From: a virus
Length of the DNA: 21,564 bases
Direction: 5' to 3' (one strand)
IMG/VR virus record: IMGVR_UViG_3300010392_000358
Location: 1-21,564 of that record
Both the position numbers and the translations under genes were made by a program. The notes under the pieces were generated by a model. It did not search any database, had not been told where the DNA came from, and was given only the letters and a program-made list of their open reading frames with translations. Position 1 is the stretch's first letter; each line of letters starts with the position of its first letter. Of the stretch, positions 16,250-19,629 are shown in pieces.

Positions 16250-16462
16250 TCAGGCATTGACGGCCTCGTCGATCTGAAAGGCGGCCGGGATAATCCGCTC
16301 GAGCTGGACGATCGTTTCTTTTGTTGGGTTCCAGCCAGGCAGATCCATGGCGCGAAGGGTCGTTTTATTGATCCCTGCCTCGGTCGCAAGGCGGGTGAAG
16401 CCCCAACTCTTGTGGGTCTTGAAAGCCCGAATGCGCTCTATAGTGCGTTCTGTGTCAGTCAT
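16250..16462 (-). CDS. Cro-like small HTH regulator
   Basis: This 70-aa protein starts MTDTERTIERIRAFKTHKSW and has a phage helix-turn-helix: WGFTRLATEAGINKTTLRAM, then GWNPTKETIVQLERIIP. The 'LA..AGI.k.TLR......W.Pt..Ti..LE' pattern is typical of small phage XRE regulators. It diverges from the CI-like gene across a 93-base region with three operator-like sites, the cro/cI layout. No ribosome site precedes the ATG at 16462, and a TTGACA/TATTCT promoter would start transcription at or next to the A of ATG. The mRNA may therefore be leaderless. It likely opens the leftward early operon. Confidence 0.85.
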   Translation of the reverse strand: MTDTERTIERIRAFKTHKSWGFTRLATEAGINKTTLRAMDLPGWNPTKETIVQLERIIPAAFQIDEAVNA

Positions 16463-16468
16463 GCGACA

Positions 16469-16496
16469 AGAATATGCAATATAATGCACATGTCAA
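16469..16496 (-). promoter_or_regulatory. Leftward early promoter before the Cro-like gene
   Basis: On the minus strand the -35 box TTGACA (16491-16496) is followed by 16 bases and TATTCT (16469-16474). Transcription would begin at about 16462, the first base of the Cro-like start codon. Operator site 16475-16488 fills the spacer between the two boxes, so a bound repressor would block RNA polymerase. Confidence 0.6.
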
Positions 16497-16560
16497 CACG
16501 AAAGGTGCAAAAAGATGCAGGTGAGTTTTTTGGTAAATGGTGACAGTGTATAGATATGCA
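16475..16560. promoter_or_regulatory. Left operator cluster: TGCA-N6-TGCA sites
   Basis: Two perfect sites, TGCA-ATATAA-TGCA (16475-16488) and TGCA-AAAAGA-TGCA (16506-16519), begin 31 bases apart. A third with one mismatch, TGTA-TAGATA-TGCA (16547-16560), begins 41 bases further and covers the CI-like start codon. Spacings of about three and four helical turns place them on one face of the DNA. They lie between the divergent Cro-like and CI-like genes, as in lambda operators. Confidence 0.75.
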
Positions 16561-17302
16561 AATATACGATCCCGAAACACGTCGTGAGGCGCTGCGGCGC
16601 TTTATTGAGGCCAACAAGATCAAGGTTACCGTTTGGTGCCGCGAGGCGGGTGTCAGTAACGGCAGCGTGCGGGCCTTTCTAAAAGGCGACAGCAACTCGC
16701 TCACAGACAAAACGCTGACCAAGCTTGCTGGTGCGAGCGGCGTAAGTGTAGGTGTGTTGACGGGTGAGGCCGAGGCCCTAAGTCGCGCCCAGGACGGGGC
16801 GCGGCAGCTTGAAAACGCCTTTACTGACCGGGAGGTTATCAAGGCCGTCGTCGAGCAGATGAAAGGCAGCGGTAGAACGGTCCCGGTTTACAGCGCGGCG
16901 GTTTGCGACCCCGCCTGTGGAACTGCTGGGCTTGTTCATGCGGCAGCTCTTTTCATTGACCGGCAAAGCGAAAGCGCCAGGGCTAATATGGTGGTGGGGC
17001 TGGAGAGCTTTAAGACGGCGTTTATCTTTAGTGTTGCAGGGAACGCAATGTCACCGCGCTACGAGGCAGGTGAGGGGGTGGCAGTTGCGAGCGACCCCTT
17101 GATTGAGCCGGGGGATCACGTCCTTTTTGGCCTTAAGGATCCTGTTGGCGCGTCGCTCTTTGCGCGCTTTGACGGTGAGGGCGAGGGGCAGGCTTCCTTT
17201 CATCAGTATGGGCCGGGGAGTGGTCGTGACTTTCAGGTCGGATCTGAGCTAATTGGTGAGCGCCTAAAGGTTATTGAAGGCGCGCAGCTCCTCGGGCTCT
17301 AG
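16556..17302 (+). CDS. CI-like phage repressor with degenerate S24 domain
   Basis: This 248-aa protein has an N-terminal helix-turn-helix (about residues 20-70: KVTVWCREAGVSNGSVRAFL, then LTDKTLTKLAGASGVSVGVL). A linker follows, then a C-terminal LexA/CI peptidase S24-type fold with AFIFSVAGNAMSPRYEAGEG, then PGDHVLFGL. In this family the nucleophile Ser lies in G-D/N-S-M; here the position is Ala164 (GNAMSP). The Lys of the usual V-K-R is Ala203 (LFARF). It should therefore dimerise but not self-cleave. No clear ribosome site precedes the ATG at 16556. It probably maintains lysogeny by binding the TGCA-N6-TGCA operators on both sides. Confidence 0.88.
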   Translation: MQIYDPETRREALRRFIEANKIKVTVWCREAGVSNGSVRAFLKGDSNSLTDKTLTKLAGASGVSVGVLTGEAEALSRAQDGARQLENAFTDREVIKAVVEQMKGSGRTVPVYSAAVCDPACGTAGLVHAAALFIDRQSESARANMVVGLESFKTAFIFSVAGNAMSPRYEAGEGVAVASDPLIEPGDHVLFGLKDPVGASLFARFDGEGEGQASFHQYGPGSGRDFQVGSELIGERLKVIEGAQLLGL

Positions 17303-17316
17303 CGAACGCCGTTCGC
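17302..17316. repeat. Dispersed 15-bp palindrome, copy 2
   Basis: GCGAACGCCGTTCGC begins at the last base of the CI-like stop codon and lies in the 256-base gap before the next gene. It is identical to the copies at 2578, 18395 and 19858. Confidence 0.9.
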
Positions 17317-17324
17317 GGGTTAGT

Positions 17325-17342
17325 TGATTACCATAGTAATCA
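17325..17342. other. Perfect 7-4-7 inverted repeat after the repressor gene
   Basis: TGATTAC, CATA, GTAATCA form a perfect A/T-rich inverted repeat eight bases beyond the 15-bp palindrome. It could be a protein-binding site or part of a weak terminator with the palindrome; no T-run follows. Confidence 0.55.
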
Positions 17343-17356
17343 TTGCGTCCCATGGG

Positions 17357-17385
17357 TTGACAGCCTTTTTGCAACCCCCTAATGT
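17357..17385 (+). promoter_or_regulatory. Candidate promoter for the second S24-like gene
   Basis: TTGACA (17357-17362), 17 bases, TAATGT (17380-17385). The -35 is perfect and the -10 weak. It lies within a GGGTTG/CAACCC inverted repeat (17354-17377). The remaining gap to 17558 shows no convincing gene. Confidence 0.4.
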
Positions 17386-17558
17386 TCGCGCCAAGATCCT
17401 ACTCGCAAGAGGCGGGCGGGATCGGGGGTTCCGTTACCACACAGACCCCCAATCGACCCTTTCCCAGAATGGGCCAGCCTTAACCATCGGTCATGAGCCG
17501 AAGGACAAGGCCCACGCCGCGCGAGCTCGCGCGGGAACTAAATGGGGAAGGGTAGGAA

Positions 17559-17927
17559 GTGAAGTCAAGCCAAGCTGGCGATTTTAAAGCCATAAGAACC
17601 CACCCGGCGCGACCGCTCGCGTCGGGGTTGGAAAATATCACCATCATTAAAGCGCCCTGCAATGGGCTTGCGCCCCGCGTCGCGGCGGGGGAGATCGTTG
17701 CGATCGATCCAGGCCGGGCAGCGCAGGCGGGGGACGATGTTTTCATTCGGTGGCGAGGATATGAGCAAGGGCGCCTGGCGCGACTTGTGTGTCGCTGCGC
17801 TGGGGGTGCGGTGATCGGGGGGTTGAGGGGGCAGCCTTTAACGAAGGTCGAGCGCGGGCAATGCCTGGAGATCGTGAGGGTGATATCAATTTCACGATTG
17901 ATAATTCAGGGTCACAGCAAAATGTAA
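17559..17927 (+). CDS. Stand-alone degenerate S24-like protein
   Basis: This 122-aa protein starts with GTG (MKSSQAGDFK) after GGGGAAGGG. It has no helix-turn-helix but shows the core of a LexA/CI-type S24 domain: ITIIKAPCNGLAPRVAAGEI, then VAIDPGRAAQAGDDVFIRW, then GRLARLVCR. The alignment GDSMEP to CNGLAP puts Gly36 at the nucleophile Ser, and VKRL to LARL puts Ala74 at the catalytic Lys. It should be inactive as a protease but may still dimerise, perhaps with the neighbouring CI-like repressor. It could instead be a remnant of a second repressor that lost its DNA-binding half. It lies between the two operator clusters. Confidence 0.7.
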   Translation: MKSSQAGDFKAIRTHPARPLASGLENITIIKAPCNGLAPRVAAGEIVAIDPGRAAQAGDDVFIRWRGYEQGRLARLVCRCAGGAVIGGLRGQPLTKVERGQCLEIVRVISISRLIIQGHSKM

Positions 17928-17938
17928 AAATTAAAATA

Positions 17939-17983
17939 AGCATTTAAATGCACTTTCGCAGTTGACAGATGCAATAAAATGCA
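17939..17983. promoter_or_regulatory. Right operator cluster: TGCA-N6-TGCA sites
   Basis: AGCA-TTTAAA-TGCA (17939-17952, one mismatch, containing the perfect palindrome GCATTTAAATGC) and TGCA-ATAAAA-TGCA (17970-17983) begin 31 bases apart, exactly as in the left cluster at 16475/16506. The second site starts two bases after a perfect TTGACA (17962-17967), so it would cover a rightward promoter. That promoter has only a weak -10 (about 17985-17990). Confidence 0.7.
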
Positions 17984-17988
17984 CAATC

Positions 17989-18020
17989 CTCCCTCTCAAC
18001 AAACACACGTTGAAAGGGAG
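17989..18020 (+). promoter_or_regulatory. 5' leader hairpin enclosing the ribosome site of the XRE gene
   Basis: CTCCCT-C-TCAAC (17989-18000) pairs with GTTGA-A-AGGGAG (18009-18020) around an eight-base loop: an 11-pair stem with one mismatch. Most of the ribosome site GGGAGAG (18016-18022), six bases before the ATG at 18029, is in the stem. Translation is expected to depend on opening this hairpin. The 16068 ORF has the same design. Confidence 0.6.
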
Positions 18021-18028
18021 AGACCTCA

Positions 18029-18433
18029 ATGCCACACCCCACGGACAAGCACGTCGGCTTTCGGGTGCGCCAGCGGCGCATGAGCCAGCGGATCAGCCAG
18101 CCCAAGCTTGGCGCGGCCCTCGGCGTTTCGTTTCAGCAGGTCCAAAAGTATGAGAACGGCGCCAACCGGATCGGCGCCTCTAACCTCTACGGGATCGCTA
18201 AAGCCCTAAAGGTCGAGGTCGGGTATTTCTTCGACGGCCTTGAGGAAACCGGCAACGGCAAAACTCTCGACGCCTTCACCGACCCGCACCTCCTGCGCCT
18301 CGGCGGGTGCTGGGCTTGGATCCCCGACAAAATCCGCAAGCACCTGATCGGCCTCGCCGAAGCCGCCGCCCGCGCGTCAGGCTGGCCCGGCCCCGCGAAC
18401 GCCGTTCGCGAAGAGCCAAGAGGGGAGGGCTGA
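18029..18433 (+). CDS. XRE-family transcriptional regulator
   Basis: This 134-aa protein has an N-terminal helix-turn-helix at about residues 8-70: VGFRVRQRRMSQRISQPKLG, then LGVSFQQVQKYENGANRIGA, then LYGIAKALKVEVGYFFDGL. This is a form very common in alphaproteobacterial regulators. The C-terminal half is helical and of unknown role. It opens the rightward operon beyond the second operator cluster, so by position it could be a CII- or Cro-like early regulator. Its leader hairpin covers the ribosome site. One copy of the 15-bp palindrome lies near its 3' end, where it is read as A-N-A-V-R. The next gene starts two bases after its stop. Confidence 0.88.
   Translation: MPHPTDKHVGFRVRQRRMSQRISQPKLGAALGVSFQQVQKYENGANRIGASNLYGIAKALKVEVGYFFDGLEETGNGKTLDAFTDPHLLRLGGCWAWIPDKIRKHLIGLAEAAARASGWPGPANAVREEPRGEG
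18395..18409. repeat. Dispersed 15-bp palindrome, copy 3
   Basis: GCGAACGCCGTTCGC lies in frame within the 3' end of the XRE gene, 26 bases before the ATG of the ParB-like gene. With flanking bases it extends to 17 bp. GAGGGGAGGG follows before the start codon, as with copy 4. Confidence 0.92.
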
Positions 18434-18435
18434 TC

Positions 18436-19629
18436 ATGGGACGCCCAAGCAAGCTAAGTGAAGAGACAAAAACACAGATCATTGAGGCCAAGCTCGAGAA
18501 GGGCCAAACCCTCGTCGCGATCGCCAGGAAGTTTGATATCTCCAAAAGCCGCGTCTCAGATATTGTTCGCGAGCATGAGGCCCGCTCGGGCAGCGAAAAA
18601 AACCAGCCACCGCAAACCGTTCCCTGGTGTCAATGCACCCTCGGCGAAAATCCGCGCAAGACCTGGACCGAGGAGGAGCTCGACGAGCTCATCCTCTCGA
18701 TCGAGCGGCGCGGTGTTTTGGTGCCGTTGATTGTTGAGAAAATCGAGGGCGGTCTCAAAGATCACGTCTCGGGCGGCGATGGTCATGAGTATGTCGTCCG
18801 CGACGGGCAGCGCCGCTATCATGCGGTCGCCAAGCTTATCGAGGCGGGCAGGCTAACCAAGACCGCCATGCTGCCGGTGATGATCGAGGGCCTTCAAGAC
18901 CCCCTCGATATCACGCTCAACCAATTGGCGCGCAATCACGGCCGCGTTGAAATGACCCCGCTCGACGAGGGCGAGGCCTTCAAGGGGTGCGAAGGCCGAG
19001 GCGCCGACGCGAGCCTGATTGCCCACACCATTGGCAAAACCCGGCGCTACGTCGAGCAGCGCATCCAAATCGCCAGAGACCTCGGCGACACGGCGCGCGG
19101 CGCACTGATTGAGGGCGAGATCACCTTTACTCAGGCGCGCACCATTGCCGGCCAGGACGAGGAAACTCAGGAAGCCGCCGTCGAAGCCATTGAGGCGGGC
19201 AAAATCCTCACCGAGAACGAGCTCAAAGACTTCCTAAAACCAGATCCCCAGGACGGCGAGGTCGCCCCCAACCCCGACCTCGCCGCCACCCCTCCGGATC
19301 CCGCCGACCCCACAGCGGCGGATCCGGAGGATCCCCTACCGCTTGAGGGCGGGGAAGGCGGTGCGGTTGAGATTGTCGACCTTCAAGTCACGATCGACGA
19401 GCCCGACGAAGAGGGCCGCGAGGATCTCGGGCCGGCGCTACCGCTCGACGAGGAAGGCCGGCAAAAGATTTGGAGCGAGATCTGGAGGCCGGGCTTTGAT
19501 CAGCTCGCCGCCTTTACGGAAAAATATGTCAACGGAAGCCGCCCCGAAACCGCCGATTGGGCTCCTGAAGATCAGCAGGTGCTCGACTGGCTCGGGGGCC
19601 GGCGCGCCAAAGCGGAGGCGGCAGCATGA
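18436..19629 (+). CDS. ParB/KorB-like DNA-binding protein
   Basis: This 397-aa protein has three parts. Residues 1-50 form a resolvase-type helix-turn-helix (AIARKFDISKSRVSDIVREH). Residues about 70-180 form a ParB N-terminal domain with WTEEELDELILSIERRGVL, then YVVRDGQRRYHAVAKL (the ParB 'GERR' box as GQRR) and LNQLARNHGRVEMTPLDEGEAF. Residues about 187-240 form a KorB/ParB-like HTH (LIAHTIGKTRRYVEQRIQIA). A long Asp/Pro/Glu-rich C-terminal linker follows. ParB proteins load on specific palindromes for partition or act as regulators. No ParA gene is present in the window, so regulation or a phage-specific role is equally possible. The ATG at 18436 follows GGGGAGGG. The extra N-terminal HTH is unusual. 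Confidence 0.88.
   Translation: MGRPSKLSEETKTQIIEAKLEKGQTLVAIARKFDISKSRVSDIVREHEARSGSEKNQPPQTVPWCQCTLGENPRKTWTEEELDELILSIERRGVLVPLIVEKIEGGLKDHVSGGDGHEYVVRDGQRRYHAVAKLIEAGRLTKTAMLPVMIEGLQDPLDITLNQLARNHGRVEMTPLDEGEAFKGCEGRGADASLIAHTIGKTRRYVEQRIQIARDLGDTARGALIEGEITFTQARTIAGQDEETQEAAVEAIEAGKILTENELKDFLKPDPQDGEVAPNPDLAATPPDPADPTAADPEDPLPLEGGEGGAVEIVDLQVTIDEPDEEGREDLGPALPLDEEGRQKIWSEIWRPGFDQLAAFTEKYVNGSRPETADWAPEDQQVLDWLGGRRAKAEAAA

Follow-up and report, generated by a model that had tools for sequence, protein, structure and literature searches.

In phage lambda, the repressor gene lies between two operators, OL and OR, with three sites on each side (3+3) at a spacing of roughly 20-25 bp. Two temperate phages whose CI proteins are among the nearest relatives of the one described here have twin operator clusters with other half-sites. 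In the Agrobacterium phage Rivra (PV764937), palindrome pairs of the AGTGGGAYRCATCCCACT type at 2539/2561 and 3718/3750, 1.18 kb apart, flank the CI gene, accompanied by a small divergent gene and outward-facing operons, and in the Paraburkholderia phage IPK (PV588664), ATTACCGTACGGTAAT sites at 2208 and 3947/3973, separated by 1.74 kb, flank CI, with TTGAC directly 5' of the operator on both sides. In Rhizobium phage RHph_Y25, the repeat pair was seen on the left side only. Given Rivra and IPK, the plan is already known, and the locus that we describe is one more instance of it.

Layout of the locus

The window, that is, the whole stretch of DNA that was analysed, is the complete 21,564-base IMG/VR virus record IMGVR_UViG_3300010392_000358, which is probably a phage genome fragment. 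Structural and primase genes are encoded on the minus strand up to ~16.5 kb. The features discussed here are as follows.

16250-16462, minus strand: ORF for a Cro-like small HTH protein of 70 aa that opens the leftward operon
16469-16496, minus strand: leftward early promoter TTGACA-16-TATTCT, found by promoter scan (10/12 matches)
16475-16488, unstranded: operator left-1, TGCAATATAATGCA, exact TGCA-N6-TGCA, within the spacer of the leftward promoter
16506-16519, unstranded: operator left-2, TGCAAAAAGATGCA, exact, 31 bp from left-1 and upstream of the -35
16547-16560, unstranded: operator-like site left-3, TGTATAGATATGCA, one mismatch, 41 bp from left-2
16556-17302, plus strand: CI-like repressor of 248 aa with a weak N-terminal HTH_26 and a degenerate C-terminal S24 domain
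17559-17927, plus strand: HTH-less, S24-core-like protein of 122 aa, assigned from hhalign and tblastn neighbours
17939-17952, unstranded: operator right-2, AGCATTTAAATGCA, AGCA-N6-TGCA, one mismatch, upstream of the right -35
17962-17967, plus strand: right -35 TTGACA, a consensus hexamer read in the sequence
17970-17983, unstranded: operator right-1, TGCAATAAAATGCA, exact, 31 bp from right-2 and directly 3' of the right -35
17989-18020, plus strand: inverted repeat CTCCCTCTCAAC-8-GTTGAAAGGGAG in the HTH_3 leader, with CAAC-N8-GTTG as its core
18029-18433, plus strand: XRE/HTH_3 regulator of 134 aa (HTH_3 E=1.2e-10), first gene of the rightward operon
18436-19629, plus strand: ParB-like protein with an additional N-terminal HTH, encoded second in the rightward operon

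As in lambda, operators of one type flank the repressor gene on both sides, the predicted early promoters face outward, the putative Cro-like gene is divergent and each cluster contains several sites. Unlike lambda, the window has a TGCA half-site, 3+2 sites, a spacing of 31-41 bp and 1.46 kb between the clusters; its S24 domain lacks the catalytic dyad, and the HTH-less S24-like gene sits between the clusters. The right pair of Rivra is similarly spaced (32 bp), whereas its left pair is spaced at 22 bp and its half-site is GTGGGA; IPK differs in its half-site (ATTACC) and in its right pair (26 bp), and the CI proteins of both phages, unlike that of the window, retain the catalytic Ser and Lys. 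A first-pass annotation of the window had likened the locus to lambda OL/OR; the topology holds and is supported by the two phages with the same plan, but the locus is not a strict copy: the right cluster has two sites rather than three, its -10 is weak, and the S24 domain is devoid of catalytic residues.

That annotation had also listed four TGCA-N6-TGCA sites, of which those at 16475, 16506 and 17970 are exact, whereas the one at 17939 reads AGCA-N6-TGCA, its GCATTTAAATGC nonetheless being a perfect palindrome. The 31-bp spacing that it reported was measured in both pairs, and the fifth site at 16547 has, as described, a single mismatch and overlaps the ATG of the CI-like gene (16556-16558). 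Equally frequent pairs elsewhere, the outcome that it had named as contrary to its reading, were not seen: the entire record contains five sites that match with one mismatch or none, and every one of them lies inside the two control regions. The exact site, present three times in the record, occurred 0.35 times on average and never more than 2 times in 100 shuffles; 1 of 1000 whole-window shuffles produced two equally spaced pairs, and none of 5000 local-composition shuffles a pair in both control regions. Furthermore, the left and right 51-bp modules are identical at 33 of 51 positions, a value that was not reached in 2000 shuffles.

Read outward, the left module is TGCATCTTTTTGCA-CCTTTCGTG-TTGACA-TG-TGCATTATATTGCA-TATTCT and the right module is AGCATTTAAATGCA-CTTTCGCAG-TTGACA-GA-TGCAATAAAATGCA-CAATCC. 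The register of TTGACA is the same in both, 9 bp and 2 bp from the sites of the pair, and CTTTCG between the outer site and the -35 is common to the two modules; the first reading had missed both the register and CTTTCG. The outward promoters that it placed over the clusters are borne out for both -35 hexamers and for the left -10, but not fully on the right. The left -35 occupies 16496-16491 on the minus strand and the operator overlaps the promoter in its spacer, whereas the right side offers the consensus -35 alone: the rightward promoter was not reported by the promoter scan, and the -10 at 17 bp, AATCCT, is weak (3/6 matches). The leftward +1 is predicted at ~16462, where the Cro-like ATG begins (window 16460-16496), and the Cro-like transcript may thus be a leaderless mRNA.

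TGCA modules in other genomes

A module pattern of 18 fixed bases matched five contigs in IMG/VR, four of which carry nearly the same module adjoining an XRE repressor; the one examined (L003) has a P2-like tail gene, and one of the four corresponds to contig L116 from a genome of Achromobacter dolens. When no promoter was required, the spacings of TGCANWWWWNTGCA pairs in IMG/VR clustered at 20-21, 23-24, 30-32, 36-37 and 41-44 bp, near helical multiples. A TTGAC-like hexamer precedes the proximal site by exactly 3 bp at 17 of the 30 loci with a 30-32-bp spacing, some of which are near-identical copies, and at 1 of the 35 distinct pairs with a spacing of 20-25 bp. In GTDB genomes, a related pattern identified a Desulfurellaceae locus (L108) in which the module separates an S24 repressor gene from a small, divergently oriented HTH gene. 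Additionally, in two Fibrobacter promoters of lexA-like genes, named as such from the translated sequence (L109:7901-7944 and L111:4983-5026), two TGCA-type boxes 31 bp apart surround TTGACA.

The P2-like and other prophages (L003/L116, L082 and L104) and the Fibrobacter lexA loci share with the window the 31-bp TGCA pair, the TTGAC between its sites and the adjoining repressor; unlike the window, they have a single module, and their repressors are unrelated, with different recognition helices. At the TGCA loci examined, there was no second 31-bp pair within 4 kb, and a second cluster at L106 was rejected because it lies in coding sequence without a repressor. The recognition stretch VAFRTYCDYEAGK, common to most of the TGCA-module XRE repressors examined, is absent from the proteins of the window, so that the half-site does not identify its binder. 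Since the recognition stretches differ, the shared half-site looks convergent, and the recurrence of the 31-bp module beside unrelated repressors suggests that this promoter-operator geometry has been reached repeatedly.

The search for TGCA pairs at 31 bases in related prophages, proposed in the first-pass annotation, had a divided outcome: the pairs recur beside other XRE repressors, at 31-32 bp and around TTGAC, but close relatives were not found. For the CI-like, primase and ParB-like proteins, IMG/VR yielded no useful close relatives; GTDB genomes, phages and plasmids, searched for relatives of the CI-like protein, had none of use either, and no close relative of the whole immunity region emerged from these searches. 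Our literature search on the TGCA motif found nothing concerning phage operators.

Other arrangements of these boxes were also encountered. The viral contig L048 (2825-2911) contains six TGCA-N6-TGCA sites, mostly in 10-bp steps with a 32-bp gap, which resemble iterons. In two Enterobacteriaceae contigs (L113:4491-4534 and L114:5430-5473), dense TGCACTAAATTGCA-like iterons surround TTGAC upstream of a small gene that is followed by a ParA-like gene, and these iterons are possibly involved in plasmid partition or replication control.

Regulatory proteins

The CI-like protein matched four phage CI proteins at 96% in hhalign, in an alignment that spans most of its length, and its Pfam S24 and HTH_26 matches are below the cut-off. 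In its S24 domain, the catalytic Ser is replaced by Ala164 (GNAMSP) and the catalytic Lys is absent at SLFARF (200-205), two residues that are invariant in the four reference CIs. Given the loss of both, RecA-stimulated self-cleavage is unlikely, so that induction would have to proceed otherwise. All HTH matches of the divergent 70-aa Cro-like ORF are sub-threshold. The 122-aa protein matched the CI profile at 88% in hhalign as an S24 core without HTH; CNGLAP replaces GxSMxP, so that the Ser is missing here as well, and its six neighbours in tblastn, all weak, are repressors or regulators of phages. AlphaFold modelling from single sequences gave models too poor for use, with a mean pLDDT of 45 for the CI-like protein and of 36 for the 122-aa protein. 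It is conceivable, although doubtful, that a CI-like repressor incapable of self-cleavage runs the lambda-plan switch while the 122-aa protein associates with it via the S24 fold, modulating or relieving repression.

Residues ~77-145 of the CI-like protein (window 16784-16990), which cover the linker and the beginning of the S24 region, share similarity with the motif I region in N6-adenine methyltransferases of type I. This stretch, FTDREVIKAVVEQM...VCDPACGTAG, which parallels the DPACGTGG region of these enzymes, scores above the cut-off in Pfam (E=5.7e-5) and has a PADLOC E-value of 7.7e-6. The likeness may reflect chance or a chimera.

The inverted repeat in the HTH_3 leader is the sole CAAC-N8-GTTG match in the window and could fold into an RNA hairpin of -16.9 kcal/mol. 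For the XRE regulator LfsT of P. aeruginosa, recognition of NAACN(5,8)GTTN has been reported (PMC9769523). The repeat is a candidate operator of the HTH_3 protein or, alternatively, a candidate RNA hairpin holding the ribosome-binding site.

A probable lambda-type immunity region and the alternatives

The sites, their spacing and register, the gene order and the parallels in other phages are demonstrated, and the two clusters likely correspond to OL and OR in an immunity region of the lambda type, arranged as mirror images, with the CI-like gene between outward early operons. What speaks against this reading is that the right -10 is weak, that each cluster has one imperfect site, that the CI-like and Cro-like proteins, the two candidate binders, have HTH domains scoring below the Pfam cut-offs, and that their recognition stretches differ from that of the XRE repressors at other TGCA modules; the searches, moreover, gave no close relative in which the sites might be conserved. 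With respect to the binder, cooperativity and autoregulation, we infer the following mechanism. The TGCA-N6-TGCA palindromes would be bound by CI-like dimers and probably by the Cro-like protein as well, one site in each cluster filling the spacer between the -35 and -10 of the outward early promoter and the other lying upstream of the -35. Because the paired sites are three helical turns apart, a pair of dimers could occupy them cooperatively and keep RNA polymerase off the promoter; the spacings of 31 and 41 bp, ~3 and ~4 helical turns, are consistent with cooperative binding, and a DNA loop across the 1.46 kb is possible. From the leftward promoter, the Cro-like protein would be made together with the operon that runs toward the primase genes; the rightward promoter would drive the HTH_3 and ParB-like genes. 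Occupation of left-3, over the CI-like start codon, would allow the repressor to limit its own synthesis.

We consider it unlikely that the 134-aa HTH_3 protein binds the TGCA sites as the main repressor of both promoters and the CI-like protein acts elsewhere. The TGCA modules of other viruses do adjoin HTH_3 repressors, no other protein of the region has a strong HTH_3, and among the regulators of the window this one is the best phmmer match to the TGCA-module repressors, a weak one (E about 0.01). However, it has a candidate operator of its own, CAAC-N8-GTTG, in its leader, its recognition helix (SFQQVQKYENG) is unlike the VAFRTYCDYEAG of those repressors, and in Rivra and IPK the operators flank the CI-like gene.

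That the left cluster alone is a working CI/Cro switch, with the right one a decayed or weakly used duplicate without paired regulation, would account for the weak -10, the mismatched site and the failure of the promoter scan on the right, and yet appears unlikely as well: TTGACA and both right sites retain the register of the left cluster, with 33/51 identity to it, and the XRE gene begins directly 3' of them. Weak -10 elements are common in alphaproteobacteria, a point that would also count against decay if the host belongs to this group. That an AT-rich palindrome clusters by chance in intergenic DNA that is itself AT-rich is highly improbable, for although ~8 one-mismatch sites are expected per window shuffle, no local-composition shuffle placed a pair in both regions, and the TTGACA register is common to the two.

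As a lambda-type immunity region, the locus would show the OL/OR plan to be preserved in a divergent phage that uses another half-site. Paired TGCA boxes around TTGAC may also provide a concrete signature for lysogeny switches in unannotated contigs.
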